Below, piece by piece: positions 1,584 through 59,221 of a stretch of 64,000 nt of DNA. Every line of letters begins with the position of its first letter. The stretch's first letter is position 1. The notes below the pieces were generated by a model. It worked only from the letters and a program-made list of their open reading frames with translations, had not been told where the DNA came from and searched no databases. This stretch comes from Hericium rajendrae (Eukaryota; Basidiomycota; Agaricomycetes; Russulales; Hericiaceae), in NCBI GenBank assembly GCA_033439255.1, contig CM065886.1:1984001-2048000 (forward strand), written 5' to 3'. The position numbers and the translations under genes are program-made.

Positions 1584-2750
1584 CAGACATCATTCATGCC
1601 TATCGGCCATGACCCCGCATGCTCGTCTCAATCCCCACAAGGCCTCGTGCTTGCATTCAACACTGTGCACACTTGCAATGTCCCGTCCGCATGCTCAAGC
1701 CCCCACACCCACTCACAATGCCTCGCACCTGCTCACAATGCCCCGGACATGCGCGCCATGCCCGGTTGCATGTATACTCCTGCAGCTGCTCAACTCAACA
1801 TGCCCCGCGTGTGTGCACAACAACCTGCACAGATGTACGACAACCACACATGTGTGACATGCCATACAGTGTCTCTTCGTGTATGCAGAATGTCCCGCAT
1901 GCCCACTCCAGGTCTCCCGCACATGCTCGACACCCACACGTGCTGGACATCCCCTGCACGTGCCCAGCTTCACCTCTGCATGCACACAGATGCCAGTGCA
2001 TGGCAGCGCTGCAAGGCCTCATCCCACAACAACACATGCATGACACCCAGCATTCGCACTCAACACTACTTGCCTACAACGCCTCGCATGCGTGCGTGCT
2101 CCCGCGTGCCTGCTCAACACTCTGTGTCCTCCAGATGCTCTGCATACGTGTGCAATGTCCCACGTGCATGTACGCAACCTGTGTGCATGCATGGCAGCCC
2201 TGACCCCATTTGTGGGCATGGCAACCCAGCCGGACCATGTGTAGCTGCGTGCGGCCCACACCTACCCCTGTGCCCTCCATGCCGGCATTCGTGCATGCTG
2301 TGCCACCTTTTGTGTGCACATGCTGTCTTTTGTGTGCCTGTGCTGTCTTTGCACCTGTGCCTGCACCCTCCATGGTGACTTGCATGCCCTCCACATCCTG
2401 TGCCCTACGTAGTAGCTCGACTAGCTTACATATGTATGATAGTAGATTTATTACAATTTAATATGATAAATCTTGACTTGTAATATCTGATGCTTATCTG
2501 ACTTGTGGTAGTAATCATAGGCATCATAGTAGCCATAGCACACTTTGTTAATCATGATAGCCCTATGTATATCAGACTACAGGCTATGGAGGCTATGATA
2601 ACCCTATGAATGTTACACTGTCTGCTATGTAGGCTATGATAGCTCTCATAGCTCTACATAGCTAGATAAGCAAACTTCATAGCTCTGATAGCTTAATGAT
2701 AGCACCGATAATGTAACCTGCAGCTATGTCAAATTCAAATTTCTCAGATG

Positions 2751-3225
2751 AAGATCAGCTTGAAAGGAAGATCTCAATTTCGAATTTTGATTTTTGAGTT
2801 CTGGATGGACTGAGGCCTATGTAGCATGGCTGGAAAGTGATTAATCAGTACATTTCAGTGCATTTTAGAACAATTAAATCGGTGGAGAACTGCCAGACTT
2901 ATTTCAAGGTCAAGATCTTAGGGGGGAGATCTCAGTTTCGAGTTTTGATTTTCGAGTTCTGGGCAGATTGGGGTCTATGTAGCATGGCTGGAACACGATT
3001 AATCAGTATATTCCAGCTCATTTTAGAACAATTAAATCGGTGGAGAACTGCCAGACTTACCTCAAGGTCAAGATCTTGGGAGGGAGATCTCAGTTTCGAG
3101 TTTTGATTTTCGAGTTCTGGGCAGATTGGGGTCTATGTAGCATGGCTGGAAAGCGATTAATTAGTACTTTCCAGCCCAATTTAGAATGAGTGAATCAGTG
3201 AAGAACTGAGGGACTTACCTCAAGA
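2751..3225 (-). repeat. Tandem exon-intron units, H3 array
   Basis: Three units with a period of 158 bp (matching blocks begin at 2861 and 3019). On the minus strand each unit has a donor after CTTGAG and an acceptor before CCATGCTACATAG. Confidence 0.75.
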
Positions 3226-5011: not shown

Positions 5012-7219
5012 AATCCTGATTTTAAGAATGAGTTTGACTATGCTCCACATCAGGACTTTAAAGCAAATGGCAAAAGGCAGTGGACAAATTTTATGTCTGA
5101 AAATTGGGCATGACATCAGGCTGATAAGATTGCTGAAGATCCAAATACTCATGGTGCTATGTTTGTACCCGTAATCTTAGGCAGTGATAAAACAACTGTA
5201 TCTGTTAGTATAGGAAATAATGAATATTATCCACTATATGCATCTATTGGCAATGTGCACAATAATGTTTGTCGTACTCATTGTGATGCTGTAAGTGTTG
5301 TTGGATTTTTATCTGTTGGAAAAACAGATAAAGAATTTCGAAGTAGTTCTGAATTCAAAAAATTTCGGAGACATATGATGCATAAATCTTTAAAAATGAT
5401 CCTGAAGCATTTGCAGCCTGGATTGACTGTGCCAGACATTGTTCGCTGTCCTGATGGACATTTACATCAAGTCATTTATGGTATTGGTCCATATATTGCA
5501 GATTATCCTGAGCAAGTACTTATGGCATGTATTGTCAAAAATTGGTGTCCAAAATGCACTTGTCCACCAAAGGATCTAGATAGTAGTGATGGTATAAGGC
5601 GTAGCCATGAGTACACATCTTTACTTATGGAAGCACTTCAGGAAGATAAACTATGATCTGAGTATGGAATTGTTGGAGATATCATGGTATGTTATTAGAA
5701 ATTATATATCATTCATCATTAACTGATTGTCTTCATTTAATCATAGCCATTTACAGATAATTTTGAACGTGCAGACATTTATGAGCTTTTGACTCCAGAT
5801 TTACTTCATCAACTTATCAAAGGTTCATTTCATGATCATTTAGTCCTTTGGACAGAACAATATCTTACCAAAGTACATGGACCAACTGGAGCAATAAGAA
5901 TTATAACAGATATTGATTGAAAGATTGCTGCTGTTCCATTATTTCCTGAGCTGCATTGATTTTCTGATGAACATGGATTTTCACAATGGACAGAAGATGA
6001 CTCCAAAGCTCTGATGAAAGTTTTTCTTCCTGCTATCAATAGTCATGTTCTACCACAGATGGTGCGAGCTGTTCGAGCATTTTTGGATTTTGCCTATATG
6101 GTACGACAGCCTATCATTGATGAAGATACATTAGATGCTATAGATGCCACTCTCAATCTTTTTCATGAGGAACGTCAAGTCTTTATAGATAGTGATGTTT
6201 GATTAAAAGGAATTTCACTTCCTAGGCAGCATTCATTGAAGCACTATAGGCCTTCAATTGAAGACTTTGCAGTGCTAGGTGGACTTGATTCTTCTATCAC
6301 TGAGTCTAAACATATTAAAGCTATAAAAGAGCCATGGTGACGTTCTAGCAGATTTAATGCACTTGGCCAGATGCTAATCACCAATCAAAGACTTGATAAA
6401 CTCAATGCTTGCACATAGGACTTTATTGAGTGTGGCATGCTAGGTAAGCCTTTGGGATTTATAGCAAAGCAGTCAGAAAATATGCCAGATCCAACTGCAG
6501 GAGACTTGGACAATGAAGACATAGAACTTCCAAATTATGGAGTTGCTGAAGGAGATGACATAACTAATCAAGTAACTCTGTCTAAGACACGTAAAAGAGA
6601 ATATCCTCGAAAATTGAATCAGCTTGCACAAAGTCAGAACTTGCCTAATCTTCCTACACTTATTCGACAATTTTTATTTGATCAGTTCTATGAAACATCT
6701 GAATTAACCTCTATGCATGTTGATCTGGATGCATGTCCACCAGCACCTTACAAGATTGATGTCTTTCACTCTGCTATAGCCAGATATTATTCTCCTAGTG
6801 ATATCTCAGGAATAAAAGGCATGCATCATCATCGTATTTATTCTTGTCCCAAATGGCGCAATCAATATTCACGACGTGACTGTGTTTTTATACAGCATAG
6901 TTTTGATCTGCCTGGAATGCAGGGAATTTATATTGCACAAGTGAGAATGTTCTTCTCTTTCAAATACAATCAAAATGTCTATCTATGTGCACTTGTTGAA
7001 TGGTTTGTACCTATTGGAGATTCTCCTGATCCAGACACAGGAATGTGAATTGTAGAATGAGAACTTGATGATCAGGATAAAAATGTAATGGCTGTAGTTC
7101 ATATGAATACAATTTCTCAAGGAGCACATCTTATTGGTGTATATGGAACTGAGTTTCTTCCTACAGATTTTAAATATAGCTATTCATTAGATGTGTTTCC
7201 CTCTTTCTATGTAAACAAA
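5012..7219 (+). pseudogene. Plavaka-type (CACTA-like) transposase, copy A, broken
   Basis: This resembles the Plavaka transposases of Agaricomycetes. It starts mid-gene at NPDFKNEFDYAP, because H3 ends at 5011. It then reads through VILGSDKTTVSV, IGNNEYYPLYASIGNVHN, YIADYPEQVLMACIVKNWCP, a 60-nt intron (5687-5746), the LHQLIKGSFHDHLVLW block, FLPAINSHVLPQMVRAVRAF and a C-terminal part to about 7219 (SYSLDVFPSFYVNK), where E5 interrupts it. In-frame stops at 5111, 5654, 5918, 5957, 6200, 6338, 6414 and 7046 stand where the family has Trp or Arg. All fit TGG-to-TGA/TAG or CGA-to-TGA, meaning C-to-T on one strand or the other. It is inactive as it stands. Confidence 0.85.
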
Positions 7220-8470
7220 CATCTGAAAAATCTCAAATTTATATAGCCATCAGCCACAATTATCTAAGCTATGAGAAGCTATATATTTAATTCATAAAGA
7301 TATATAGGTCTATATTAGCTATATAGACTATATAGCCATCTATGTCATCTATGTAGGCCTATATAGCTAGTTAACATGGCTATGGAATCTATGGACATGT
7401 TCCTACTTGCTATAGAGCCTATATAGCCTATGTTACCTATATCACCTGATAAGTGTAAACTATATACTATGGCATCTATGGAATATACAACAACTATACA
7501 CATTATTTAGAGTATAAACATGATATAATTCACATCAAAGATAAGTCAAATTTGTTTTTATTATTTTCATCATGACTAAGTACAAAGATTAAAAAAATCT
7601 AAGTATGACTCGAGCACCGATGTGGGCGTTGATGCTGTAAAGTGCCGGCGCCTGTCGAGCGTGCAGGCGCAGAAGGCACGGAGATGGCGCGCAATGGCCG
7701 TGCATGGCGCGAATGCGAAGGCACCAATGCGGGGCACGCGCGAGACGCGCGAGCGCGTGGTATTGCATGCATGTCAGGCGCGGGGCATGCATCATGTACG
7801 TCGCACATGTCCGAGGGGTAGGGCACGTGGGCACAGCATTGTGCACATGTGCGGGGCCTAGCGCGTGTGTTTGGGGCCAGATGTTGCATGCGAGACTTGG
7901 CGTAGGGGGTAAGAGGAGACCGCGGGGCCTGTTGCATGTCCGAGGGGTAGCGCGGGATAGCGGGGTGCTTGGGGCGGATCCTGGGCATGGCACACCACGC
8001 TGTGGGGCGGGCTCATGCGGGACTCATGCGTGGACGGGCGTCCGTGCGCAGACGAGGCCATGCGCTGGCGTCAGCGCACAGGCGCGGAACGTTGAGTGGC
8101 CTTGCGCGTGGGCGAGAGGTTGCACAGGCGGCCAGGATGTTGCACAGGTGGCCGGAATGTTGCACAGGCGGTCGTGGGTGTGGAGTGCGAGCATGAAGCA
8201 TTGTGCGCACATACGAGGTGTGGGGCATGTGAGTGCGGGGTCTTGCGTGTTGCAGTGCGAGCGGGGTAGGGGCGCGAGCCTGGAGCGTGAGGCGTACGTG
8301 CAGGGCCACGAGTCGTGCGCACAAACGATGTCTCGAGTCCCGTTGCCATGGCAACGGGACTCTAGGGTGTGCGGACGTCGATGGCACGAGGTGACGTGGC
8401 CCATGCGTGCATCGCTGACAGCGCGGAGGTGACGTGGAGAGCCACCCATGCGTAGATCCGTGGCCGTGTG
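7220..8470 (+). mobile_element. E element, copy E5 (left part only)
   Basis: Begins CATCTGAAAAATCTC directly after the Plavaka frame. About 350 bp of AT-rich subterminal sequence with tatagctata repeats follow, then a GC-rich core (7610-8470) made of degenerate short repeats such as TTGCACAGGCGG (three near-copies at 8125-8175). It stops where the LTR fragment at 8471 begins, so the promoter half and right end are missing here. Confidence 0.7.
8335..8362. promoter_or_regulatory. 28-bp perfect palindrome with RFX X-box core, E5
   Basis: The centre reads GTTGCCATGGCAAC, identical to the symmetric X-box consensus known for RFX-family proteins (including fungal Crt1/Rfx1). It is extended by GAGTCCC/GGGACTC arms. 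Equivalent palindromes occur in E0, E3 and E4. The match to the motif is visible; binding is inferred. Confidence 0.65.
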
Positions 8471-8580: not shown

Positions 8581-11500
8581 GTGCTCGAGTTCTTGATTGA
8601 CGCATTCTGACTCACCGTCGGTCTGTGGATGATAGGTGGTGCTGAGGGAGGACTTGATACCAAGTTTGTCAAAGACACCACGCATGACTTTGCCTGCATA
8701 CTGTGGGCCATGATCAGAGATGAGGCGTTCTCAGAGGCCGTAGTTCCGATAAATCCTGTCAAAAAGGATGTCGACTGTGCCATCACTGGTAATGGTCTCT
8801 TTACAAGGAGTGAAGGAGACATGCTTTGTAAAACGGTCAATGACCACATTGATGGAGTCATAGCCTTGGCATTTTGGGAGTTTGACGATGAAGTCTGAGT
8901 TAATGTCTTGGAAGGGATGGGTAGGGATGGCATTGGGAATTGTTTCAACATGAGGGTGGTGATTTTGAACCTTGGTGGCCTGGCAGATAGCACAGCCATC
9001 AACATAATCACGAACAAAGACAGACATACCGGACCACCAGTAGTTGCGACTGAGGAGCTCGTAGGTCTTGTAGCATCCTGGGTGACCAGCCATGGGGGTG
9101 TCATGATGCAGCTTGACGATGTCCTGACGAAGGTCCTTGTCAGCAGGGATGTAGACCTTGCCACGAAAGAGGATGAGGCCATCCTTGTAGTTCCATTCTT
9201 GGAGGTTCTTGACGAGGGAGCAAGGACCGTTGTTCAGGATCACATCAAGGGCTTGAACGGCCTCAATGTCCTTGGTCTTGGCATTGCAAATGCATTGGCA
9301 AAGATCAGCATTGCCAATGGACTTGACAGCAGCTGGACATGTAGCATGGATCTGGAAGTACTTGGGGTCGAGGAGGACATGATCTGAGTTGTCGTCGTCC
9401 ACCCCCTCTCTATGGTCAGGTCGTCTCGACATGGCATCTGGCCGGTGATGAATACCAGGCTTGTCGATCAAGGTGAAGTCAAAATGAGTGAGAAAGAGAG
9501 CCCAGCGAGCCTGACGATGACTCAGCTTTTGGGCAGACTTGAAGTATTCCAGGTTCTTATGATCAGTCCAGATCTCCACAGTATGGGGAGAACCTTCCAG
9601 GTAGTAGCACCAGGCTTCGAGGGCATGGATGATGGCCAGGAGTTCCTTGTTATAGATGTCGTAGTTGCATTCAGGGGCAGTGAAGGCCTTGGAGATGTAA
9701 GCAATAGGGTGCCATTGCTCATCCTCCCCACACTGGGATAGGATACCTCCTGTGGCATAGTCTGAGGCATCGACCTCAACCAGGTGAGGTTTGGATGGGT
9801 CAGGCATGATAAGGACTGGGGATAAGGTGAACGCAGCTTTAAGAGCCTCAAAGGCATGTTGACATTCAGCAGACCAGGCCCAAGGATGGTCTTTCTTGGT
9901 AAGGTCGAACATGGGGTGGGCGACTTTGGAGAAGTCCTGGATGAAATGCCAATAGAAATTTCCAAAGCCGACAAAGGACTGGACGTCCTTGACGTTACGG
10001 GGGGCAGGCCACTCAGCGATGCCTGCAACCTTGACGGGGTCCATGGCGAGCGTGTTATGGGAGACAATGAGACCGAGGAACTCAACTGAGGACTGCTCGA
10101 ATGAGCACTTCTCTGGTTTGAGGAAAAGGTCATTGTCCTGGAGGCGTTGGAGGACCTTGCGCACAAGGTCACGATGTTCTTTGAGGGTTTCAGTGAAAAT
10201 GAGGATATCATCCATGTAGATGATGACTTTGCCCGTGTCGATGAGATCCTTGAAAAGTTCATTCATCATTCCTTGGAACGTGGCAGGGGAGTTTATAAGA
10301 CCAAAAAACATCACCAGGGGTTCAAAGAGACCACGGTTGGTCTTGAAGGCGGCTTTCCATTCATCGCCCTCCTTGATGCGAACATTGTTGTAAACCCAGC
10401 GAATGTTCATCTTGGAGAAGACCTTGGCACCCTTGAGCTTGTCAACGAGTTCAGAGATGAGGGGCAGGGGATATTTATTCTTGATGGTGCCTTTGTTGAG
10501 GGTACAATAGTCCTGGACAGGGCATAGTTTGCCATCCTTTTTCTTGATAAAGAAGAAGGGACTTGCCATAGGGGATTTAGAAGGGCGGATGTAGCCTTTC
10601 TTGACCTGGTCATCAAGAAATGAATCGAGGTCCTTCTGCTCAGTGGAAGCCATGGGATAGACCTTGCAGGAGCGGGGTTCAAAACCATCTTTCAGGTCAA
10701 TGGCATGATCCCAAGGGCAACATTCGGGGAGGCGATGGGAGGATTCCTCATCGAAGACAGGTTGGAAATCCTGATACTGAGGGGGAACCATCTCAGCAAA
10801 GGACTTCTCTGCAACATGAGTGGCCACACGCTCAGCCAGTTTCTGAGCATTGGTGAAGGAGCGACAGATACGGATGGTGTGCTGGTAGTCGGGGTCATCG
10901 TCCGGTAGGGGGTGGTGTGTCCCAGTCAGGGAGAACACCAGCTAGGCGAAGGCCCTCTTCAACCCAGTCATCATCGATGTTAGGTCGTGGGTCATCATCC
11001 TCGGTGAATAGATGTGCAGGAACCTTGGACAGGTGGATGTGGCGAAGGCAGACACCTTGGACATGGCAAGCGGGGATCACGTATTTGGGAAGTGGAGCAG
11101 CGACAAATGGTGGGGGCAGTGGGAGCAATGGAGGGGGGCAAGGTGGGGGAAGCAGTACTGCAGCAGCACTGAGAACTGGTGGACGAGGGGCTGACTGGCG
11201 GCGTTCAGTGCAAGTGGACAGGTTCTTGACTGGGGGTTTATTCAGAGTGCAAGAGGGGGGGCAGTGAGTCATGTCAACACGACGAGAGACCCAATCAATT
11301 TCAGGGTTGTGCTCCTGTAACCAATCGGTCTCAAGGATGATGTCGTAGTCACCAATGTCAACGAGATAGAACTCAGCTGTCTCCTCATGGAAGGACATCA
11401 AGTCCTTGGCATAAATGCAGATGTTCTGGTTGACTGAATAGTGGACCCAGCCCATAATGTTTTTGGAGTTGTCCACGTTGCAAACGGAAAAGGGTTTAGG

Positions 11501-11602
11501 GAGTTTCTTGAGGGGGAACTGGTGTTTCTTGGCAAACTCGGGGTGCATAATGATGTCTTCTGCACCACTATTGAGAAGTGCCTCAGCGTCGATTTGTTTC
11601 TT
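8581..11602 (-). pseudogene. Ty3/gypsy pol region (fossil)
   Basis: Order along the minus strand: retropepsin-like region (about 11600-11300), reverse transcriptase (with YMDDILIF), RNase H (PHTVEIWTDHKNLEYF) and the zinc-finger and core parts of integrase (HHDTPMAGHPG, CAICQ). The order RT-RNase H-integrase is that of Ty3/gypsy. Open frames on the plus strand here are shadows. Confidence 0.9.
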
Positions 11603-11853
11603 CATCAGGAACCCTTACAACTTTCTGATGCATCTGATTCTATCTGACTCAATCTGATTTCAATCTGATTGATCTGAAAAATGTTTTAAAGGACTTCTGA
11701 ACTATGTATCATATATATAAAAGATAAAATATTGCAACTGTTTATATTTCACCTCTCAAATATCTATTTCTTGAAAAATCAGATCAATCAGATTGAAATC
11801 AGATTGAATCAGACAGAATCAGATGCATCAGAAAGTCGTAAGGGTTCCTGATG
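11603..11853. mobile_element. MITE, 251 bp, CATCAGGAACCC ends, inside the gypsy element
   Basis: Near-perfect inverted ends (CATCAGGAACCCTTACAACT and its complement) about 85 bp long around an AT-rich centre, flanked by TT duplicated at 11601-11602 and 11854-11855. Ends and duplication size match the other CATCAG MITEs. Non-coding. Confidence 0.9.
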
Positions 11854-12385
11854 TTGATCGGGGCAGTGATAATCTTGGCCTGGAGCGTAATGGACGGTGT
11901 CTAACGGTTGGGCATGATAGCAGACATGCGCAAAGACAATGGATACAATTGCTCACAGGGGTCGGATAGTACAGAGAAGCAATTCAACAGATCAAAGAAA
12001 TGTTTCTTGCCACCCACAGATGACGTGACCGGGGGGCACTTCAAAAACCCTCAACCATGTCCTTCAATGCAGCCTTCGCCTCTTCCCTCTCTTCTTTGCT
12101 CAAGTCCTTCAACTGCGACGATAAGTCAGCGATAGACCTGTTGATGGTGGGGACAGCAAGGGCGGCGGCTGCATCTTCTGGAGCTACTCCCGGGGCAGAG
12201 CCAGTTTCTAGCACTCGGACACGAGGGATTGGGGCATGGGGGTTGGAGTCAGCATTGAGGGGGCAGTCGCGAAAGCCATGGCCCTTCTGGTGGCAGCAGA
12301 AGCAATCACCCTCATGCCTAAGGTGCTCATGGTCAGGCTCCGAGAGTTTGGGCAGTTGGGCACCTGTAGCAGCAACTGTGCGGGA

Positions 12386-13030
12386 TCAGCCAGTAGATGT
12401 GGACTGAGGGGAGCAAGTGCTCACCGGGGTGCACCCAGTTGTAGGGCGGGGACTCTGGAACCGGGTGCACATGAGGTAGGCAGCATTCCTGTCATGGGCC
12501 CTCACCTTCCACTTAGCCAGGGTGGTGGGCGTGGGGTAGCTGTGCTGGCAATCATCTCGCAGGGTGCTGTTGAGGCCATGCAGGAACCAGTCGATCAAGG
12601 CCACATCATTGTAGCCGGTGCGAGGAGCAAAGGACTCGAACTCAGTGATGTAGTCGACTACCGGGCACGTACCCATCTGGAGGGTCTGGATGGCATGGGA
12701 GGCGTCCTTGGAGTCATCAAGGGGGGAGAAGTCCAAGTTGAAACGAGTTCGAAGGGCGGCGAGGTCGACATAGCGAGGGACATGGGCTGGAGATGTATTT
12801 GCAGCCACGAGGTCGTCATCCTCAAGGATCTCCTTGACACACTGGGTGGCCCACTGGCCAGCAATAGGGCCCTGGCAGAGGTCAAGGAAGAGGGAGATCT
12901 GGGCAGTAGCATCTTTATACTGGACAGAGTTGGTGCGAAGGAATAAGTGAATATGCAACTGGAACTCCTTGGACTTGGAACGATCTCCCTCAAAGGGAGC
13001 AGGTTTGACGCTGATCTCAGGGTTGGACAT
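12386..13030 (-). pseudogene. Ty3/gypsy gag-like region (fossil)
   Basis: Open frame of 214 residues beginning MSNPEISVKPAPFEGDRSKS, with the retrotransposon gag pattern (FEGD, LCQGPIAGQW). A zinc-knuckle-like CFCCHQKGHGFRDC is encoded nearby at about 12260-12305. More low-complexity coding sequence lies towards the LTR. Confidence 0.75.
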
Positions 13031-14255
13031 GTCGTCGGTCAGCTGAACAGGGGGAGCTGGGGCAATGATTGGTTTGACGTTGACAGTGGATGTGGATGTA
13101 ACAGTGGTGACAGGTGGAGCAGATGAGGGGACTGGTATCGGGGTTGAGATGCGAGGGGATAGTGGTGAACGGAGGACTGCGAGCCGGACAACTCACTCTT
13201 GCTCGCATGCTTCTAGGACTTGGTGAGAGAGAGTGAGTTCAGGTTCAGTGATGAAAACACTACTGGCCTGCCAAAACCACTGATCTCTTCCTTCTACTAG
13301 GTTTGGTCTCCAGCCAACGACTAGGCGTCGAGAGTTGGAACGGTATGCATAGTACTTCCTGGTAACGACATTGAAGATAATACTGGTTGGTACAAAGAGG
13401 AGTTCGGTGCATGTGGGAGGGGAGTCAATACTAGAAGGAGCAACGGTGGGGAGCGGTGGAGTGGCTGGGTGTAGGCGGTGGTGTTCCTCTCTGGCAACGT
13501 CGAAGTCAATGAGTTCGAGGTAGGGGAAGTCTTCATGCTCAGCGAAGTACCACTGGCGGGTGGCAGCATCTTGGTGAGAAAAGTGGATCCAGGTGATGCC
13601 AGCAAGGGTGTAAACGTGGTAGTCCTCAAGGGACTCGAAGATCCCAAGTGAGAAGGGTGCAATGGTCTGGAAGTGGGGGTCGGTGGAATCAATGGTGACA
13701 ACCTACAGGAAGTCTGCTGCAACTGGACGACGTCCAAGGGCACGAGGGTACAAGGTGGTGGAGTACGGGGTTCTGAGGAATTGGTGGCCGAGGCAGTCTC
13801 TGGCCCACACAGGCTCAGGCGAGGGTTCTGGGGTGAAGAAACCTAGTGTGCAAAAGGTGAACGAGGTCGATGACAGGATGCTCGCAGGAGATCCTCGGTT
13901 GGGTTGGTGACAGTGGTAGGCGATGTCCGAGGCACCAAACGTGAATTCTTGCAAGTCGATGTCAAAAGCAACTTGAATTTGAATGTATAAGGCAATGGAG
14001 ATAGCACCTGCACGTGGCTTCCACGATCTCAATCAAAACCAAACTCCTTCAGCTTCCCAATGCTTCACAGCACAATAGCGAAGGAGGGGAATGAGTGCAC
14101 TGCCCTCAATGGTGTTGGTGATGGAGAAGGGGAGATGAGGTTGATAGAATGGATATCAAGATACGGTGAAGATGTCGACGATGAAGGGTTCAAAGAAGAG
14201 AGGTATGATGGACTATAGTAGAGAGGTGAGGCAAGTGTATGAGAGATTGTCCAGG

Positions 14256-14681
14256 TGTCAAGACTCGATCATAGACAGCAGAGAACCACCCAAGTCACCA
14301 GCAATGATGAGAGCGAGAGAGCAGAGAGCGACTAGCAGCACAGTGACCTGTATTGGAGGTACAGTACGGTACAGACAAAATGGACAATCTAGGGAAATAG
14401 ACGAGCGACAGCCTGGAGCCTATAAGTACTGGGACGACAATGGAAAAAGAACAATGGACACCATAATGGGTTGAACAATAGAGTGAGAACAATGGTGGCC
14501 AAAAGGAGAACAATGGGAGGGAGAACAATAGAATGTCCCAAAGGGGAACAAGGGCATGGGTGAAGGATAGCCTCAGGTCATGTGAGAAAGTGAACATGTG
14601 ATGGGGCTGCTGGAGCACATGACCGATGCAATGCCTTGATGGCAGAGAAGAAGACGGAGAGAAATGGAGCGATTCATGACA
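14256..14681 (-). mobile_element. LTR of the gypsy element
   Basis: On the minus strand it runs TGTCATGAATCGC...GAGTCTTGACA (426 bp). The ends match the solo LTR at 61414-61795, and both contain repeated TTGTTC(C/T)CC blocks. The pair therefore belong to one family or close relatives. Confidence 0.75.
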
Positions 14682-15216
14682 CTCAGGTTGTCCAGAACTC
14701 AAAAACCAAAACTCGAAATTGAGATCTTCTCCTCAAGATCTTGACCTTGAGGTAAGTCTCTCAGATCTTTACTGTTTAACTCCTTTCAAATTGTATTGGA
14801 ATGTACTAATTAATTGCTTTTCAGCCATGCTACATAGACCTCAGGTTGTTTTGAACTCAAAAATCAAAACTCGAAATTGAGATCTTCCCCTCAAGATCTT
14901 GACCTTGCAGTAAGTACCTCAGATCTCCACTGATTTACTTGTTCCAAGTTGGACTGAACTGTACTAATTTATTGCTTTCCAGCCATGCTACATAGGTCTC
15001 ATACCATCTGAAACTCAAAATTCAAAACTCAAAATTGAGATCTCTCTCTCAAGATCTTGACCTTGAGGTGAGGTCCTCAGATCTTCATTAATTTACTTGT
15101 TCTAAATTGTATTGGAATGTGCTAATTAATTGCTTTTCAGCCATGCTACATAAACCTCAGGTTGTCCAGAACTCAAAAATCAAAACTCAAAATTGAGATC
15201 TCCCTCTCAAGATCTT
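14682..15216 (+). repeat. Tandem exon-intron units flanking the gypsy element
   Basis: Units of about 158 bp with GTAAGT-like donors after CTTGAG (about 14752 and 14911, GTGAGG at about 15068) and acceptors TTTTCAG/TTTCCAG before CCATGCTACATA. Same unit as in H1, H4 and H6. Confidence 0.75.
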
Positions 15217-15867: not shown

Positions 15868-16127
15868 CATCAGGAAGGTTGACAACTTTCTGATTGACCT
15901 GACAATTTCTAACCCTACTGACAGCTTCTGATTGATCTGATCCACCTGAAAGCAATCTTGGGAAGCAAATATCTGATCAGACTTTTACATTCAAGAAAAG
16001 ACATTTATTGTCAGATATATAAGTTTTTAATCTCTAACTAATAGATATATCAAAATCTTTGATTACGATTCCTTAGAATCGTTTACTCTATACCGCCTTT
16101 TCATAGTGAAAACGACATGCAAACGAT

Positions 16128-16209
16128 GACTATGCCCATTAGGCAGTTGGCTTATATAATCACACATCTTCAATCTGACGAGTTTGCAGGTTCAATTCCA
16201 GCTCTGGCC
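16128..16209 (+). repeat. tRNA-like segment A of H1
   Basis: Box A-like TTAGGCAGTTGGC at about 16139 and box B-like GGTTCAATTCC at 16189-16199. The T-loop TTCAATT is flanked by GCAGG/CCAGC (one mismatch). The segment is present in every H copy near the hairpin end. It probably derives from a tRNA and may act as a pol III promoter. Confidence 0.6.
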
Positions 16210-16254
16210 AGACTTTTTATTTTACACTTTGTTTACTGTAACTTGGTCAGTTCT

Positions 16255-16640
16255 TGACCAATTCACTCATTCTCAAATGCATCAGAATCTACTCATCTAT
16301 CGCTTTCTAGCCATATATTATGCATCTTGATCCATGCAGATCTTGCAGAATGCAAAGTATTTCTGTATTTTTTTTCCTAGTATGCGTGATTCTTAGTTAT
16401 CTCAGTCAATTCTCCACCGATTCACTCATTCTCAAGTGGATCAAATCCTACTCATTTATAGCTTTCGAATCATATTTTATGCATCTTGATCCATGCAGAA
16501 CTCATAAAACACGAAGTACTTCTGTATTTTTTCTCCTAGTATGCTTGATTCTTAGTTATCTCAGTCAATTCTCCACTGATTCACTCGTTCTCAAGTGGAT
16601 CGGATGCTACTCACTCATAGCTTTCTAGGCATATTTTATG
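16255..16640 (+). repeat. Repeats of about 165 bp, type 1, H1
   Basis: Units contain GATTCACTCATTCTCAAGTG, then GCTTTC(T/G)AGCCATATTTTATGC, GCAGAACTC and TTCTGTATTTTTTCTCCTAG. They are recognisably related to the 158-bp exon-intron unit further on but lack the GTAAGT donor. Similar sets occur in H2, H3, H4, H5 and H6. Confidence 0.7.
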
Positions 16641-16870
16641 TATTATAATTCATGCAGAACTCACACAAAAACTCAGTTTTGTGATCTATGTTGCTCAATC
16701 ATTTTTAGTATACATTGAGCATACTCAATAAGTACATATACTATATAGCAATCTACTATGTGATCAAATCATTTAATGACTGTTGAAAGATTCAGTCTTA
16801 GTATGAGCTCCAATGTAGCAGCACTTCATCATGGTACGGCTGTACCATGGTTGTGATCACATGAGCACTT

Positions 16871-16896
16871 CACCATGGTACGGCCGTACCATGGTG
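16871..16896. repeat. 26-bp perfect palindrome centred on GGCC, H1
   Basis: Same palindrome as at 3806, preceded by a one-mismatch version at about 16833-16857. TGATCACATGAG lies between the two. Confidence 0.8.
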
Positions 16897-16920
16897 GTAA
16901 TCATGTGATGATTACATAAT

Positions 16921-16983
16921 CAAAACTCGGTGGTGAAGTGTGAGTTCTCTTGAGTTTGCAAGTTCAATTCCAGTTCGTGCCAG
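16921..16983 (+). repeat. tRNA-like segment B of H1
   Basis: Box A-like TGGTGAAGTGTGA and box B-like AGTTCAATTCC spaced more closely than in segment A. Copies are found at about 3725-3790 (-), 34807, 37500 (-) and 39424. Probably a decayed pol III element. Confidence 0.4.
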
Positions 16984-17457
16984 ACTTTTTTGATATTTTG
17001 TAATACTAAAAATAATATAATCAATGAGCAATGAGCATTAGTACAATGTCTACTCTTATAGTATATTATAAGTACAGAAATGCCTATAAATCTATGTGTT
17101 GAAGACTGATTACATAATCAAAACTCAGTGGTGAAGTGTGAGAGCAGTAAAGTCTTGCTTCCTCATGAGCTTTACATCCTGCATGCTTGTCATGTTGGCT
17201 GCAAGGCTCGATGGGTATCTCCAAGTCATCCGCTGAGTGGTTGACAGTTTGGAACCAGGAGGTACTCAACCCGATGGCTCACCTTGGTCATCTTGTATGT
17301 ATCTCACTTGCTGAGCTGGCAGACTAATTTATTCATAGGTCTCTAAATTTAGCACCAACCAGGGTGTATTATACCTTTTCAAAATCACATTGACAGCTAC
17401 TTTTAGACAATGCCTTCTGAGCTATGCTAGCATATCTGCTTAGTTGAAAATTAACCA

Positions 17458-18263
17458 ATCATCATTATTCAAATGAGCTTGAGGTAAGTCCCTCAATTCT
17501 CCACCAATCTACTTGTTCTCAAATGTGTTGGAATGTGCTGATTAATCGCTTTTCAGACATCCTACATATGTCCAATTCTGTTCAGAACTTGAAATTCAAG
17601 ACTCGAAATTGAGATCTCCCCCTCCAAGATCTTAATCTTGAGGTAAGTCCATCAATTCTCCACTGATTCTCTCATTCTCAAATGCGTCAGAATGTGCTGA
17701 TTAATTGCTTTCCAGCCATGCTATATATCCCTCAAACCATCCAGAACTCGAAAATCAAGACTCGAAATTGGAATTACCCCCTAAAAACCTTGACCTTGAG
17801 GTAAGTCCATCAATTCTCCACCGATTCTCTCGTTCTCAAATGCGTTCGACTCTACTGATTAATTGCTTTCCAGCCATGCTATATATCCCTCAAACCATCC
17901 AGAACTCGAAAATCAAGACTCGAAATTGAGATTATCCCCTCCAAGATCTTAATCTTGAGGTAAGTCCATCAATTCTCCACTGATTCTCTCGTTCTCAAAT
18001 GCGTCAGAATGTGCTGATTAATCGCTTTCCAGCCATGCTATATATTCCTCAAACCATCTAGAACTCGGAAATCAAGACTCGAAATTGAGATTACCCCCCA
18101 GAAACCTTGATCTTGAGGTAAGTCCATCAATTCTTCACTGATTCACTTGTTCTCAAATGCGTCAGAATGTGCTGATTAATTGCTTTCCAGCCATGCTATA
18201 TATCCCTCAAACCATCCAGAACTCGAAAATCAAGACTCGAAATTAGAATTACCCCCTAGAAAC
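17458..18263 (+). repeat. Tandem exon-intron array of H1, first part
   Basis: GTAAGT donors at 17484, 17643, 17801, 17960 and 18118 (spacing 158-159). Each is followed by a 73-nt intron with TGATTAAT near its 3' end and TTTCCAG, then an 85-86-nt exon-like stretch CCATGCTATATA...CTTGAG. The donor sits in an inverted repeat (CTCAAG...CTTGAG). Exon length is not a multiple of three, so protein repeats are unlikely. Confidence 0.8.
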
Positions 18264-19840
18264 TAGGGACCGACACGAGTGCACTCGCGGGTGATCCGGA
18301 TCCGAACCCGCGGGTATTTGACCCAGTGCGAGGTCTGACCTGGATCCGCGCGGGTTTCAGCCACCGGGTGATCCGGAGCCGTGGGTCAGGTACCTGCGGC
18401 GCCACGGATCACTCGCAGGTCATTTTCCTCAATGTATCGCTGCCCCTCGTACTCGAGTCGTCCATGCCAGCTGGGGGTCGGAGCAGGTCACGACGACCAC
18501 CTGCCGAAAATACACTGGCTTCCATTGTTATGCTGCGCCAGACTGCCCGGTTCCAAATATTCCTTACACCATCATATGTGACAAGACCACTCCGCGTGGC
18601 CCATTCGTGCCCAGCAGCAGCAGCTGGTAAGTTTTTTTGGTTCGTATTTGTTTTGCATTTGTATTCATTCTTTTTACTGAATTTGCTATTTATTCTAGTG
18701 TCGAAGACTCGATAGGCGATGACGCGATGCACAACCTCACAACGACACTGCCACCTCCCACTCGACACCTCCGACTCGACACCTCCCATACACGCTCTCC
18801 ATCCCCATCGACATATGCGTACCAGCACGCATCGTATACGGACTCATCAACGCGCGCACACGCACACGTTCGCACTAATGCACATTCCTGCACGCGCGCG
18901 TAGGTACGGCCATGCCTCATCTGGATACCTTCGCGGACGCCATCGAGGACGGCCAAAGGCTCCGCAGGCGAGAAGTTAGGATGCAGACGCCGACAGGCAT
19001 CCACTAGCATTTGGGATGGCTCGAAGGATGGAGCAAGGACGGTCACGCGATGAGGCGTTCGGCGAGAGATTCGAGGTGGCACACAACGAGGTGAGTACGC
19101 TACATCGTATCGATTAGCGTCCAAGCGGACGACCCGTTTCTTTCGCATCAACTCCACCCGCCGCTGCTCGTCGACATTGCCGTGCAGTCCGACCCCCACC
19201 CTGCTCACTTCCCCTGCATGTCGACATGCATTCGTCAACACCAACACCCACCTGTGGGGCACACCAGTGCCCAACTTGATCACATCCCATGCGCCGTATG
19301 ATCCCGCCGCTGCCAGCGACGCTGCTCGCATGTGCACAGCTGTGTGAGCCAGCATTCGCGCATGGCCTCCCGCATTGCGTGTCCACCAATGCATGCGCAC
19401 ACACTCAAACACGACCATGCCGCCATGTGTATGCCTGCATGCACCCTTGCACCGATGTACGGCCCCACCTGCATGTGTTTGCACCCCGCGCGTCACACAT
19501 GGCCCTGCCATCTCGCACTCGATCCCTACGCCTCACCTGCAGCCAGGTTATGGTAGATATATTTGACTGTTCAGTAGCAGTAGAGTCCTTGCATTTGTAG
19601 ATTATATTTCATGTAGCTCTTCCCAAAATAAAATGAGGGTGCAGATTACTACTAAGTACTATAATTATGGGTCACCCGCGGGTCACTCGCAGGTTGATGC
19701 ATTTTTGCAAGACCTTGACCTGGATCCGGACAGGTCTCAGCCACTGGGTGATCCGGATCTGCGGATCGGGAACCCGCAGGTAAATTTCGCGGGTTTACCT
19801 GTGTTGACCTGCAGGTGACTCTGACTCGTGTCCATCCCTA
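18264..19840 (+). mobile_element. hAT-type element, 1577 bp (hAT-1)
   Basis: Ends TAGGGACCGACACGAGT and its near complement, flanked by the 8-bp duplication CTAGAAAC (18256-18263 and 19841-19848), which fits the hAT pattern nTnnnnAn. The host array unit reads across without it. Subterminal GGGTGATCCGGATC repeats lie at both ends. The interior has CpG-rich sequence and a GT-AG intron-like stretch (about 18629-18698). I see no transposase domain, so it is probably non-autonomous. Confidence 0.85.
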
Positions 19841-20515
19841 CTAGAAACCTTGACCTTGAGGTAAGTCCATCAATTCTTCACTGATTCACTTGTTCTCAAA
19901 TGCGTCAGAATGTGCTGATTAATCGCTTTCCAGCCATGCTATATATTCCTCAAACCATTTAGAACTCGAAAATCAAGACTCAAAATTAGAATTACCCCCT
20001 AGAAACCTTGACCTTGAGGTAAGTCCATCAATTCTTCACCGATTCACTTGTTCTAAAATGCGTTCGACTCTACTGATTAATTGCTTTCCAGCCATGCTAT
20101 ATAGCCCCCAAACCATCCAGAACTCGAAAATCAAGACTCAAAATTGAGATTTTCCCCTCAACATCTTGACTTTGAGGTAAGTCTAGCAGTTCTCTACTGA
20201 TTCTCTTGTTCTAAAATGCCCTGAAATGTACTAATCAATTGCTTTGTAGACATGCTACATAATGCATAGCCCTCAGATTGTTCAGAGCTCAAAAACCAAG
20301 ACTTGAAATTGGAATTATCCCCTCCAGAAATCTTGATCGTAAGGTAAGTCCATCAATTCTTTACCAATTCTCTTATTCTCAAATGCTTCAAATTTTACTA
20401 ATAAACTGCTTCTCAGCCATGCTATACAGGTCTTGTATTGTCTAGAACTCAAAAATCAAGACTCAAAATTGAGATTTGTCCCCCAGGTTCTTGATCTTAA
20501 AGTAAGTCTAACAGA
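19841..20515 (+). repeat. Tandem exon-intron array of H1, second part
   Basis: Continuation after the hAT insert, with further donors at about 19858, 20018, 20176, 20343 and 20502. Later units drift (AAGGTAAGTC, AAAGTAAGTC). Confidence 0.75.
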
Positions 20516-20752
20516 TCTCCACTGATCATACTTTAATTAAGTGATAACAATTTGTACCTAGTGTTATTATAGACTATTTGCTATAAATTGCATAGAGATT
20601 TATAATCAATCTGACTAGTAAGACTTTACTCATTTATATACTGTTATTAAATATAACTAATAGTGGAACAAAAAAATTATCTTGCTATGCAAAGCATTGT
20701 TTCTCTTCTCTCAAGTACATCAAGTACATATTGTATAACTGAAGATGTTTAG

Positions 20753-20872
20753 ATCTTCATGATCAAGAGTGACTGGAAGAGGATCAGGAGTGAGCTTAAG
20801 CTCGTTAAGATCTGTGAGGACATTCTTGACTTCCTCAACAAGCATGTCATCCCCTCAGCTGTCTCTGGTGAG
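20753..20872 (+). pseudogene. Captured exon of a 14-3-3 protein gene
   Basis: Forty codons without a stop. They include MIKSDWKRIRSEL, then KICEDILDFLNKHVIPSA, then VSGE. This matches the 14-3-3 helix region that reads KICDDILSVLEKHLIPSA..GE in fungal proteins. A GTGAGT donor-like site lies at the SGE position and an AG precedes the first codon, as expected of one genomic exon with its splice borders. The rest of the gene is absent: downstream sequence is non-coding H element material. The 14-3-3 proteins bind phosphoserine/threonine peptides, but this short piece could not. It lies between two end-like motifs of H1 (20715 and 21617). Two extra residues before KICED relative to typical family members suggest drift. 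Confidence 0.85.
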
Positions 20873-21261
20873 TGGTACCCCATTTTGTGACAGTGTGCAA
20901 TTGCCTTTGCATGCTTAGAATAGCATATGTCACAGCAGTGCATGCACACACATGCACCTGCCATCCCTGCAATTCTTGGACTGCATGTCCATGTATGGCA
21001 CAGATGGTGCATGTGCTACCACGTGCCCTTGTGTTTATCTGCACACAACCCCTTACTGCATGTGTGCCTGCTCATACATGGCCCCTGCAAGCTCTGTGGC
21101 AACCTGTGCTATTGAATCATGTCACTTACAGAGTGCGATGGGTAGCAGCAGAGGGTGTAGTACAGCAGTATTAGCTCTACAATTATATGTAGTTACTACC
21201 ATAAATTAGAGCTCATATCCTGAATAATCATAACACTTTGGCAATTGAAGTTCAAGTTACA

Positions 21262-21432
21262 GATCACCATGGGTTACCTGTGGGTCGATGAAGTTTAGCA
21301 AAGTCTTGACCTAAATTTGAACAGGTTTTTGGCCACCAGGTGATCTGGATCTGCAGGTCAGAAACCTGTGAGTAAATTTCACAGGTTTATCTGTGTTGAC
21401 ACATAGGTGACTCTGAATCATGTTGAATCCTA
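21262..21432 (+). mobile_element. hAT right-end relic in the tail of H1
   Basis: Decayed copy of the last 170 bp of hAT-1, ending ATCATGTTGAATCCTA. CpG sites of hAT-1 are mostly TpG or CpA here. Confidence 0.6.
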
Positions 21433-22003
21433 CAATGGAGCAACCACTGGTAGACAATGTGAGTTTGAAGGTACTATGCTATCAGATTTTGGCAATTTGC
21501 ATTATGCAAAAGAACAAGAAGCAAGTTTACTTATTTATGCACCTTCATAAAATATACTAGCTAACAATAAAAAAGGAATCGTATTGCCGTGCAAAGCATC
21601 GGCCCTCTTCCACCAAGTATCTGAAATTTTTGAAAATCTGAGAGTGTCTGATTTCAAATCTGGAGGTCAAATATCAGTCAGATGGATCAGACAGTGTCAG
21701 ACACCATCAGATGCTCTCAGACAGTTGCAGATAATTTTCAGATATTTGACCTCCAGATTTGAAAAAAATCTCAGATCAGACACTCTCAGATTTAGAAAAT
21801 TTCAGATATCAGAAATTTTGTTATATCTATTAGTTAGAGATTACAAACTTATATATCTGACAATAAATGTCTTTACTTAAATGTAAAAGTTTGATCAGAT
21901 ATTTGCCTGTTAAGATTGCTTTCAGGTGGATCAGGTCAATCAGGAGCTGTCAGTAGGGTTAGAAATTGTCAGGTCAATCAGAAAGTTGTCAACCTTCCTG
22001 ATG

Positions 22004-35394: not shown

Positions 35395-36560
35395 GGTAAG
35401 TCTCTCATTTTTGCACCGATTCTCTCATTCTAAAATGCATTGGAATGTACTGATTAATTGCTTTTCAGACATTCTACATATGTCCAATTCTGTCTAGAGC
35501 TGGAAATTCAAGACTCAAAATTGAGATCTTTCTCTCAAGATCTTGATCTTGAGGTAAGTCTCTCATTTCTCCACCGATTCACTCATTCTAAATTGCATTG
35601 AACTCTACTAATTAGTCACTTTCCAGCCATGCTACATAGGCCCCAGGCCATCCAGGACTCGAAAATCAAGACTCAAAATTTTTTCTCCTAAGATCTTGAT
35701 CTTGAGGTAAGTCCTTCAGTTCTTCACCAATTCAATTGTTCTAAACTGCATTGGAATGTACTAATTTATTGCTTTCCATACATTCCATATATGTCCAATT
35801 CTGTTCAGAACTCGAAAATCAAGACTCAAAATTGAGATCTCCCCCTCAAGATCTTGATCTTGAGGTATGTCCTTTAGTTCTTCACCAATTCACTCATTCT
35901 AAATTGAACTGGACTGTACTAATTAATCACTTGCTAGCAATTAATCGCTTTCTAGTCATACTATGTAGACCCCAGGCCATCCAGAACTCAAAATTCAAGA
36001 CTCAAAATTAGAATTACCCCCCCCAGTATGCCTGACCTTAAGGTAAGTTCCTCAGTTTTCCACTGATTCACTCATTCTAAACTGTACTAAAGTATACTAA
36101 TTAATCACTTTTCAGACATGTCATATGGGCCTCAGTCTGTCTGGAACTCAAAAATTAGGACTCAAAATTGAGATTTTCCCCTAGCATCATCATCTTGATC
36201 TTGAGATAAGTTCTTCAACTCTCTACTGATTCACTTGTTCTAAGATGCATTGGAATCTACTAATTAAATATTTCTCAGCTATGCTATATTAGTTCAAGCC
36301 TGTGCTGAACTTGAAACCCAAGGCTCAAAATTGATTTTTTCCCTAGACCTGAAATTGAGATCTCTTACCCAGAATCTTGACCTTAACTGATTTACTTATT
36401 CTAAAATGCATTGAACTCTACTAATTGACCACATTTCAGGCATGCTACTTATATCTCATTCTGTGCTGAACTTGAAAAATGCAGTATAAAATTGAGATTT
36501 CTCCTCTTAGCATTACTGACCTTCATGTAAGTCTATCAGTTCTTCACCAATTTACTCATT
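35395..36560 (+). repeat. Tandem exon-intron array of H4
   Basis: Donors at about 35395, 35554, 35706, 35864 (GTATGT), 36042 and 36528. Introns contain TACTAATTA before TTTTCAG/TTTCCAG. Units diverge towards the right end. Confidence 0.75.
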
Positions 36561-36691
36561 TCTAACTATGTTGATCTCTACTTATTTGATACACTCTAGT
36601 TCTTTACTTCTGTATCCATCTTCATTAAACATAACTCACAATAAAATAGGAATCGTCTTGTTGTGCAAAGTATCAGCCCACTTCCTCCAAG

Positions 36692-38408
36692 TCTCTGAAG
36701 GGTAATTTCATTTTTGAGTCTTGGTTTTCAGGTTCTGGATGGTTTAGGGGCTGTGTAGCATTGCTGAAATGCAATTAATCAGTAGTGTTCAGAGCATTTT
36801 AGAATGAGTAATTTGGTGAAGAATTGATGGACTTACCTTAAGGTCAAGATCTTGAGGGGGAGATCTCAATTTTGAGTTTTGATTTTTGAGTTCTGGACAG
36901 TCTGAGATCTATGTAGCATGATTGGAAAGTGATTAATTGGCACATTTCAGTTCAATTTAGAATGAGTAAATTGGTAAAGAATTGAGAGACTTACTTCAAG
37001 ATCATTTAGATGATGATGATTGATTGATTGCTCACCAGGCAAATAGCCTATCACAGCTCAGAAGACATAAACTGGAAGCAGCTATCAATATGGTTTTGAC
37101 AAGCTCTAATACATACTGATTTGTGCAAGATTCAGAGACCTATAAAGAAATTAGTCTACCAGCTCAGTAAGTGAGATACATATAAGACGACTGAGGTGAG
37201 CTGCCAAGTTGAGTACTTCTTGGTTCCAAACTGTCAATTTCTCAGTGGATGACTTGGAGATACTCATTGAGCCCTGTAGCCAACATGACAAGCATGCAAG
37301 ATATAAAGCTTATGAAGAAGCAAGACTTTACTGCTGGTGCTTCAAAACTGAAATTTTGATTATATAATCAGTCTTCAAAACCATAGATTTATAGGCATTT
37401 CTGTACTTATAATATACTATAAGAGTGGACATTGTACTAATGCTAATTGCTCATTGATTATATTATTTTCAGTATTAAAAAATCTCAAAAAAGTCTGACA
37501 TGAACTGGAATTGAACTTGCAAACTCAAGAGAACTCAAACTCACCGAGTTTTGATTATGTAATCATTACATGATCACGACCATGGTACAGCTGTATCATG
37601 GTGAACAACACGTGACCACCTTTACTATGGTATGGCCGTACTATAGTGAAGCACTGCTGTATTGGAGCTCATACTAAGATTGAATCTTTCAACAGTCATT
37701 AAATGATTTGATCACATGGTATATTGCTATATAGTATATATACTTATTGAGTATGCTCAATGTATGTTAAAAATGATTGAGTAACATAAATCACAAAACT
37801 GAGTTTTTGTATGAGTTCTGCATGGATCATTAACATAAAATATGGCTAGAAAGTGATGAATGAGTAGCATCTGATTCACTTGAGAACAAGTGAATCGGTG
37901 GAGAATTGACTGAGATAGCTAAGGATCAAGCATACTAAGAGAAAAAATACAGAAGTGCTTTGCATTCTATGAGTTCTGCATGTATCAAAATAAATAAAAT
38001 ATGACTAGAAAGCAATGAATGAGTAAATTTTGATTCATTTAAGAATGAGTGAATCAGTCAAGAACTGATTGAGCTAGTTGAGGATCAAGCATACTAAGGG
38101 AAAAATACAGAAATACTTTGCATTCTGCAAGTTCTGCATAAATCAAGATGCATAAAATACAGCTAAAAAGAGATAAATGAGTAAATTCTGATGTCTTTGA
38201 GAATGAGTGAATTGGTCAAGAACTGACCAAGTTACAGTAAACAAAGTGTAAAAAAAAGTCTAGCCAGAGCTGAAATTGAACCTGCAAACTCATCAGATTG
38301 AAGATGTGTGATTATATAAGCCAACTGCCTAATGGGCATAGTCATCATTTGCGTGTTGTTTTTACTATAAAAAGGTGGTATAGAGTAAATGATTCTCAGG
38401 AATCGTAA
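36692..38408 (-). mobile_element. H element, copy H5 (reverse, partial)
   Basis: On the minus strand it starts TTACGATTCCTGAGAATC at 38408, with tRNA-like A, type-1 repeats, palindromes (about 37579-37650), tRNA-like B and the conserved frame (with stops), then an array running to 36692, where H4 ends. It forms an inverted pair with H4. Confidence 0.7.
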
Positions 38409-39984: not shown

Positions 39985-40441
39985 TGAGGTAAGTCTATCA
40001 ATTCTCCACCAATTTACTTGTTCTCAAATGTGTTGGAATGTGCTGATTAATCGTTTTTCAGACATCCTACATATGTCCAATTCTGTTCAGAACTCGAAAT
40101 TCAAGACTTGAAATTGAGATCTCTCCCTCCAAGATCTTAATCTTGAGGTAGGTCTAGTAGTTTTTCACCAATTTACTTGTTCTAAATTGTGCTCAAATGT
40201 ACTGATTTATCGCTTCTCAGACATGCTACATAGATCCCATGCCATCCAGAACTCAAAAATCAAAACTCGAAATTGAGATCTCCCCCTCAAGATCTTGATC
40301 TTGAGGTAAGTCTCCTTCAATTGTCCACCGATTCACTTGTTCTCAAATGCGTCAGAATGTGCTAATTAATCTCTTTCTAGCCATGCTACATAGCCCTCAA
40401 ACCATCCAGAACTCGGAAATCAAAACTCAAAATTGGAATTA
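39985..40441 (+). repeat. Tandem exon-intron array of H6, first part
   Basis: Three units with donors near 39989, 40147 and 40305, the same unit as in H1. Confidence 0.75.
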
Positions 40442-43132: not shown

Positions 43133-43778
43133 TACCCCCCTAGAAACCTTGACCTTGAGGTAAGTCCATCAATTCTCCACCAGTTCTCTTGTTTTAAAAT
43201 GCATTGGACTCTGCTGATTAATCTCTTTCCAGCCATGCTACATAGCCCCCATGCCATCCAGAACTCAAAAATCAAAACTCGAAATTGAGATTACCCCCTC
43301 AAGATCTTGACCTTGAGGTAAGTCCTTCAATTCTCTACTGATTCACTTGTTCTCAAATGCATCAGAATATGCTAATTAATCTCTTTCCAGCCATGCTACA
43401 TAGCCCCCAAACCATCTAGAACTCGAAAATCAAGACTCAATCTCACTATCTTGACTTTGAGGTAAGTCTAGCAGTTCTCCACTGATTCTCTTGTTCCAAA
43501 ATGCTCTGGAATGTACTAATCAATCACTTTGTAGCCATGCTACATAGCTCTCAGATTGTTTAGAGCTCAAAAACCAAGACTCAAAAGTGGAATTATCCCC
43601 TCCAGAAATCTTGACCTTGAGGTAAGTCCATCAATTCTCTACCATCAATTCTCTTGTTCTCAAATGCTCCAAAATTTACTAATGAACTGCTTCTCAGCTA
43701 TGCTATACAGGTTTTGTATTGTCTAGAACTCAAAAATCAAGACTCAAATTTGAGATTTGTCCCCCAGGCTCTTGACTT
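43133..43778 (+). repeat. Tandem exon-intron array of H6, second part
   Basis: Continuation after E4, with donors near 43160, 43318, 43462 and 43622. The unit broken by the MITE at 43779 resumes at 62279. Confidence 0.75.
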
Positions 43779-59170: not shown

Positions 59171-59221
59171 AGGTGTCAAAGACGGTGGGGTGCGACAGAG
59201 AATAGAGAACCAACGAAAAAA

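Follow-up and report, generated by a model that had tools for sequence, protein, structure and literature searches.

Transposon-borne satellite arrays with about the period described here are already known in oysters and flies. In Crassostrea gigas, Cg_HINE elements have been reported to contain short arrays of 140-180-bp monomers, and some of these elements have two such arrays (PMC7492417). HINE-Mo was described as carrying subTIRs 2-4 nt from its 5' end and 38-60 bp from its 3' end, together with a palindrome near the 3' end, a T preference and tandem repeats in some copies (PMC4067079). Among mushrooms, Pleurotus ostreatus harbours HELPO1 and HELPO2, RepHel elements with non-autonomous relatives, a 3' hairpin and no target duplication, and the word 'tandem' has no occurrence in the main text of the article (PMC4289320). 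Introns lying within repeated non-coding DNA are documented for the dg and dh non-coding RNAs of fission yeast, the centromeric dg intron being a precedent for a link of splicing to RNAi and heterochromatin (PMC5322907), and stalled spliceosomes on transposon transcripts have been reported in Cryptococcus (PMC6232588). In the literature searched, mostly titles and the opening lines of abstracts, we found no report of intron-bearing monomers in Helitron arrays.

We analysed a window of 64,000 nucleotides of the Hericium rajendrae genome (C9:1984001-2048000), sampled 20 further loci of about 10 kb apiece (designated by L-numbers), and searched the 46.8-Mb genome in its 19 contigs. Tandem Repeats Finder identified a 158-bp tandem array at 17478-18257 of the window. 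The earlier note had described its unit as an exon plus an intron, and the sequence bore this out: five blocks (Table 1), each of exactly 73 nt, start with GTAAGT, contain CTRAT about 15 nt upstream of their end and terminate in YAG, with spacings of 86, 85, 86 and 85 nt. The 'exon' starts with NCATGCTA and ends with CTTGAG. Arrays of this type are hereafter called A arrays, and a homologous type found in the same elements is called B.

Table 1. Array, element and insertion features in the window
Feature	Position	Strand	Remark
HINE-like element, including nested hAT-like insertion	16064..21618	+	3' end less certain than 5' end
5' palindromic subTIR	16064..16082	+	TACGATTCC-TTA-GAATCGT
B array	16240..16669	+	three 158-159-bp units; homologue of A lacking the GT donor
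A array, first part	17484..18263	+	5 intron-like units
Intron-like block 1	17484..17556	+	73 nt
Intron-like block 2	17643..17715	+	73 nt
Intron-like block 3	17801..17873	+	73 nt
Intron-like block 4	17960..18032	+	73 nt
Intron-like block 5	18118..18190	+	73 nt
hAT-like insertion splitting the A array	18264..19840	.	1577 bp; 8-bp duplication CTAGAAAC
A array, second part	19861..20498	+	4 units
3' end	21574..21618	+	subTIR GGAATCGTA, hairpin, CCAAGT terminus
A array of another copy	2747..3218	-	3 units, one donor lost
A array	14676..15216	+	4 units
A array, many changes	35396..36506	+	7 units, 4 intron-like
A array remnant	36689..36994	-	2 units
A array	39989..40441	+	3 units
A array	43160..43778	+	4 units

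In the window and the 20 loci, 30 A array pieces with 195 units gave 156 intron-like matches, and the block length was 73 nt in 103 of the 104 full-pattern blocks with flanks; these pieces include near-identical duplicates (L013/L015/L016, L022/L023 and window/L009). No piece had fewer than two intron-like blocks. When the unit consensus was shuffled 5000 times with its dinucleotides preserved, a strict pattern, consisting of GTAAGT, YTRAY, a pyrimidine tract and YAG, appeared only 4 times on the + strand and 8 times on either strand; it was absent from the B consensus and from the reverse strand of A. A loose version appeared in 43 and 89 of 5000 shuffles, respectively. Genome-wide, at up to three mismatches, we retrieved 439 donor-type sites (6 with the reversed control) and 352 acceptor-type sites (1 with the reversed control). 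As the units of one array are copies of each other, each of them does not count as independent evidence. The units bear a complete and well-spaced set of intron signals, beyond chance expectation. Because the set is complete and most units are intact, a transcript running across an array could be spliced, and we regard splicing of A units as plausible, should they be transcribed. It had also been proposed that the donor falls inside a CTCAAG...CTTGAG inverted repeat, which had to be corrected, since the donor adjoins this repeat. Of the six base pairs in the repeat, most units retain three (126/130, 128/139 and 135/140), and the other three are often broken (kept in 69/135, 99/139 and 102/140).

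The array does not stop at 18263, where it had been thought to end. An insertion splits it, and further units follow. This insertion has ends reading TAGGGA... and is flanked by the duplication CTAGAAAC at 18256-18263 and 19841-19848; from the length of the duplication and from its ends, we take it to belong to the hAT family. The window contains seven A pieces of at least three units, two of them being the halves of the split array. An inverted copy of the array at 17484 (97%) and of its tail (99.8%), with the same hAT-like insertion, was noticed in L009 (C9:1903000-1912900), that is, as a duplication about 93 kb away.

We next consider the element that carries the arrays, whose type the earlier note had not identified. 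Its 5' end, TACGATTCCTTAGAATCGT at 16064, is sharp, common to the copies and itself a palindrome. The subTIRs are asymmetric, with TACGATTCC at the 5' end and GGAATCGTA about 35 bp from the 3' end. The 3' end common to copies is GGAATCGTATTGCCGTGCGAAGCATCGGCCCTCTTCCACCAAGT, and inspection of the sequence by eye revealed a palindrome or hairpin, GCCGTGCGAAGCATCGGC, 15 nt from it. Among the ends listed, the base preceding the 5' end was T, except in L011 (C), and T follows the terminal CAAG. The copy in L022 interrupts a sequence that has an element-free paralogue at 32820-32890 of the window (reverse strand). The base count, compared by eye, is equal across the L022 junction and this empty site, which indicates that no target-site duplication was produced there; the empty-site evidence consists of this one paralogous site. 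One copy, L022 2888-8821, is 5.9 kb long and has a near-identical twin in L023 (99.8%). Allowing up to three mismatches, we counted 312 genomic matches to the 30-base 5' terminus and 277 to the 3' motif, 44 of the latter being exact. An identity as an LTR or foldback element, suggested by inverted pairs, was dropped, as the element ends occur in a single orientation.

The sequence from the array tail to the 21618 end is retained at 86-99.8% in L009, L010, L012 and L021, three of which hold a 1.2-1.3-kb insertion between the tail and the 3' end. Within the element starting at 16064, a decayed 3'-end-like sequence (20580-20717) is 78% like the L022 3' end, so that the ancestor of this copy may have ended near 20716, the second 3' end being a later acquisition. 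The same succession of two 3' ends, a decayed one followed by that at 21574-21618, is found in L009, L010, L012 and L021, suggesting that an old 3' end was passed over and a new one used instead. Several other details of the carriers were noted. Just inside the 5' end, at 16130-16219, a tRNA-like stretch (GGTTCAATTCC box, T run) is apparent by eye, and ARAGORN made no tRNA call for this box. A 44-bp direct repeat at 16820-16903 contains the palindrome CATGGTACGGCCGTACCATG, and comparable repeats occur at 3799-3882 and 39324-39407. At 36696-40289, two element 5' parts stand head to head about 165 bp apart and make up an inverted repeat of 1.7 kb. In L022, at about 7700-8150, a TATATAAGG motif lies 3' of a GC-rich block and is followed by a T-rich segment in which several GT...AG stretches resemble introns; a promoter and leader with the orientation of the arrays may lie here.

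Searching 3-8 kb upstream of each exact 3' motif (44 in all), we found a Helitron_like_N domain of the same orientation in 13 cases, at a distance of 5.2-6.7 kb; these represent 12 distinct domains. No such domain lay there in the opposite orientation. In L028, a RepHel element with a PIF1 helicase ends in the same 3' motif. Taken with the element ends and the empty site, the 3' end held in common with RepHel elements places the carriers among the non-autonomous members of the Helitron superfamily, the link to the RepHel partners being the shared 3' motif. These carriers are non-autonomous Helitron-superfamily elements with Helentron/HINE-like (DINE-1-like) ends. At Rep motif 2, L039, a candidate partner, reads VEAQGRGTLHCH; the residue that is S in Helentrons and L in Helitrons is T here. 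We also observed that L028 1-4275 is the 3' part of a RepHel element inserted within an A-array element, beside the array.

As with the HINE and DINE-1-like elements, the carriers have asymmetric subTIRs, a palindrome near the 3' end, a T-rich target without duplication and short internal arrays in the 140-180-bp range, sometimes two related ones, and they integrate into other repeats. They differ from them in the complete intron signals of their monomers and in the 5.9-kb length of L022/L023, and their subTIRs lie slightly nearer the ends (0-1 nt and about 35 bp) than those of HINE-Mo. The left-flank microsatellite of DINE-1 and Cg_HINE has no counterpart here, Tandem Repeats Finder reporting nothing at 16064-16240. 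A Helentron partner would have a Rep/helicase fused to an endonuclease; in L028, the one RepHel element, partly read, two further ORFs gave no Pfam family at E 0.01, and no endonuclease family was found. Since neither a microsatellite nor an endonuclease was detected and partners were seen at the 3' end only, we speak of a HINE-like architecture and not of a proven Helentron. The mushroom HELPO elements share the 3' hairpin and the lack of a target duplication, but their reported ends, T[C/G] and CTRR/CTTG, and their insertion into AT are different (PMC4289320).

In many copies, the B array (mostly three units) usually lies 0.65-0.82 kb upstream of the A array (3-11 units), and the order B to A in the same sense recurs across copies; where neighbouring arrays in L010, L018 and L021 run in opposite senses, we assign them to different copies. 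A GT donor is missing from all 42 unique B units. In place of the GTAAGT of A, they have TTATCT (14), CTAGCT (10), CTAACT (9), CTATCT (7) or CCAGCT (2). The acceptor AG is present in 17 of the 42 units, and a CTCAY branch in most of them. Averaged match probability between A and B was 0.78 for the branch, 0.68 for the rest of the 'intron', 0.52 for the donor, 0.46 for the acceptor and 0.51 for the 'exon', the last value being rough because the B exon aligned with many gaps. Similarity peaked at unit columns 11-40 and 101-110. An intron under splicing constraint should retain its ends, so that the weak match of donor and acceptor speaks against such a constraint, whereas the well-kept branch speaks for it. 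Either B has lost the intron signals or A has gained them. Between B and A, at 17295-17338, we noticed a 44-nt intron-like stretch (GTATGT...GACTAAT...ATAG). An alignment of this stretch from 16 copies, one of which has an insertion, shows an altered donor in 3 and an altered TAG in 2. A short frame, ...SSAEWLTVWNQEVL..., adjoins the stretch. A captured gene was considered as the source of this frame and given up, as no informative match was found outside the B-A region in the window and loci. Rfam returned no family in the window.

We then asked how well the splice signals are conserved among units. The profile model was rotated to start in mid-exon; its 337 matches were reduced to 225 rows with at most 45 gaps and then to 182 unique rows (140 A and 42 B units), and changes were counted by parsimony on a tree of the 140 unique A units. 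A tree of 158-bp units is noisy, owing to exchange within arrays and some duplicate loci, and single counts are therefore rough. The set GT, CTRAY and AG is intact in 103 of the 140 units, and CTRAT fits 130 of them, the branch varying mainly at the A/G position of CTRAY. To this extent the claim that splice signals are kept holds; yet 17 of the 30 array pieces have at least one unit in which the donor G+1 has turned into A. The number of changes per site was 7.09 over all columns, 4.56 over the 16 splice columns and 7.38 over the others. CpG columns changed about three times as often (19.4 versus 6.1), which suggests that copies have been methylated, and outside the splice columns the non-CpG sites had 6.27 changes each, equally in exon and intron.

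The comparison of splice bases with their neighbours, which the earlier note had called for, gave a mixed answer. Splice columns do show fewer changes, but the ten core columns (3.70 changes) reached only a one-sided Mann-Whitney p = 0.086 against non-CpG columns, and the first donor base, G+1, changed 14 times on the tree, twice the average. The second donor base did not change at all. Circular shifts gave values as low in 7 of 157 cases for the ten-column set and 11 of 157 for the 16-column set. For the five positions G1, T2, A58, A72 and G73, with gaps scored as intact, 716 of 5000 random non-CpG sets and 13 of 157 shifts did as well. Selection on every splice site had at one stage seemed attractive, as a model starting at the donor put the ten core positions above all 157 shifts. 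This result was rejected since local alignment trims a mutated first base (GT 1.00 with that model, first base 0.86 with the rotated one), and the rotated model removed this bias along with most of the signal. The conservation data are weak evidence at most for a splicing constraint. Five runs of at least three columns with at most three changes were listed, ATA, CAGAACT, ACT, AAA and TTGA, all in the 'exon'.

No exact spliced junction occurs in the genomic DNA. At three mismatches, 27 matches were obtained, which we read as 23 unspliced acceptors (CAG kept) and 4 probable chance matches; the reversed control gave 6. As DNA transposons have no RNA stage, the absence of a spliced DNA copy says little. 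In-silico splicing lengthened the best reading frame in 10 of the 30 pieces, with a mean of 69.1 codons against 69.4 unspliced, and control removals at shifted positions gave a mean of 62.0 codons. The statement that the exon is out of phase for protein is valid overall, the exception being the array at 17484, where conceptual splicing opens a stretch of 124 codons by virtue of the 86/85 alternation. This frame made coding exons look promising, but 16 of 124 shifted control removals matched or exceeded it, and the idea was abandoned as there was no general gain over the unspliced sequence in the 30 pieces.

The genomic distribution was drawn from the 100 of 312 5' ends listed, which cover contigs C1 to part of C9. 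Among these, the sites on C2, C3, C4, C5, C7 and C9 each fell within 650 kb (3-35 per contig), C6 and C8 had one outlier each, and C1 had two groups. Such a distribution resembles pericentromeric clustering. Introners are introns located in genes. Introner-like elements of fungi (PMC4457414) are likewise repeated sequences bounded by splice sites; the donors fetched here, in contrast, lie in tandem, and the 100 exact donors listed, out of 439 donor-type sites, fall in or near the repeat clusters, that is, the same regions as the 5' ends. Searches for RdRP gave 29 matches, several per gene, and an RNAi pathway may be present, judging from these homologues. With the dg and dh introns, the A units have in common that introns lie within repeated non-coding DNA; for dg and dh, transcription, inefficient splicing and an effect on H3K9 methylation have been shown (PMC5322907), whereas here we have sequence alone.

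The A arrays consist of homologous monomers, in 30 pieces of 3-11 units and in the same orientation within the element, as satellites do. We consider it probable that they are HINE-type satellite monomers in a Helitron-superfamily element, whose intron signals were copied passively. At the origin there may have been one unit with full intron signals, whether captured as exon plus intron or arisen by chance; unequal exchange or rolling-circle slippage would have multiplied it, and transposition of the element would have spread it passively. The signals would owe their persistence mainly to the youth and homogenisation of the copies, and not to selection of each unit for splicing; were the element transcribed, many units could still be spliced or hold spliceosomes. 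Arguing for passive copying are the element ends, the empty site, the RepHel-linked 3' motif, the B units without signals, the variable unit number and the clustering, and also the 14 changes at G+1, the equal rates in exon and intron and the lack of a general frame gain. Pulling the other way are the lower change count of splice columns, the unchanged second donor base, the branch as the part best kept between A and B, the 4 in 5000 shuffles that yielded the intact set, and spliced frames that exceed those of shifted controls. Two array types with different signals could moreover mean that A gained a role in splicing. The earlier view that the repeat is more than a satellite was not upheld, given the mixed conservation, the persistence of B arrays without a GT donor in 42 units and the lack of a spliced DNA copy.

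An unlikely alternative is that the arrays produce multi-exon non-coding RNA whose introns would act as spliceosome platforms feeding RNAi or heterochromatin in the clusters. The 156 intron-like matches in 195 units, the one main cluster on most of nine contigs (among the 100 of 312 5' ends listed), the RdRP homologues and the fission yeast and Cryptococcus precedents (PMC5322907; PMC6232588) would suit such a role, but donor +1 appears unconstrained, the sister B arrays are devoid of GT donors, and the clusters are not proven centromeres. Less likely still is the specific scenario in which transcribed clusters, with more than 400 near-identical donors, would load spliceosomes in series and thereby give rise to splicing-coupled small RNAs or heterochromatin; if true, repeats would here encode in many copies what the centromeric dg of fission yeast has as a single intron. 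We give equally little credence to the idea that the conserved blocks, such as CAGAACT (columns 100-106) and TTGA (columns 148-151), are protein-binding or chromatin-organising DNA sites in both A and B, with intron signals that are incidental. It would account for the location of all five listed low-change runs in the 'exon', for the two stretches, columns 11-40 and 101-110, where A and B are most alike and for the 158-bp period kept in both arrays, but no motif was linked to a protein, and rates may differ owing to mutation spectrum and recent ancestry. It is highly improbable that the introns aid the element itself, either because fast splicing of strong introns would hide the transcript from silencing, as the earlier note proposed, or make it more stable, or by giving circular RNA: the GTAAGT donor is present in 103 of 140 unique units, but CpG decay suggests methylated copies and 17 of the 30 array pieces contain a dead donor.

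Passive copying, which we favour, leaves the arrays of interest in either case. If transcribed, they would constitute a natural tandem series of near-identical introns with the donor-less B array as an internal control, and whether repeat introns recruit or block silencing would become directly testable. If not, exon-intron look-alikes would have spread without a splicing function and may mislead gene prediction.

Other repeats were observed in the window. Between two array-bearing stretches, at 8731-13192 on the - strand, lie retrotransposon ORFs (gag, protease, RT, RNase H and an integrase zinc domain), presumably of the Gypsy type. An ORF at 6419-7048 (+), for which Pfam gave no match, resembles, we assume, the C-terminal part of Plavaka transposases. 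The neighbouring segment 5012-6400 is 68% like 32168-33555, and a GC-rich array with 20-bp and 142-bp periods, unrelated to the A array, occupies 58594-59175.
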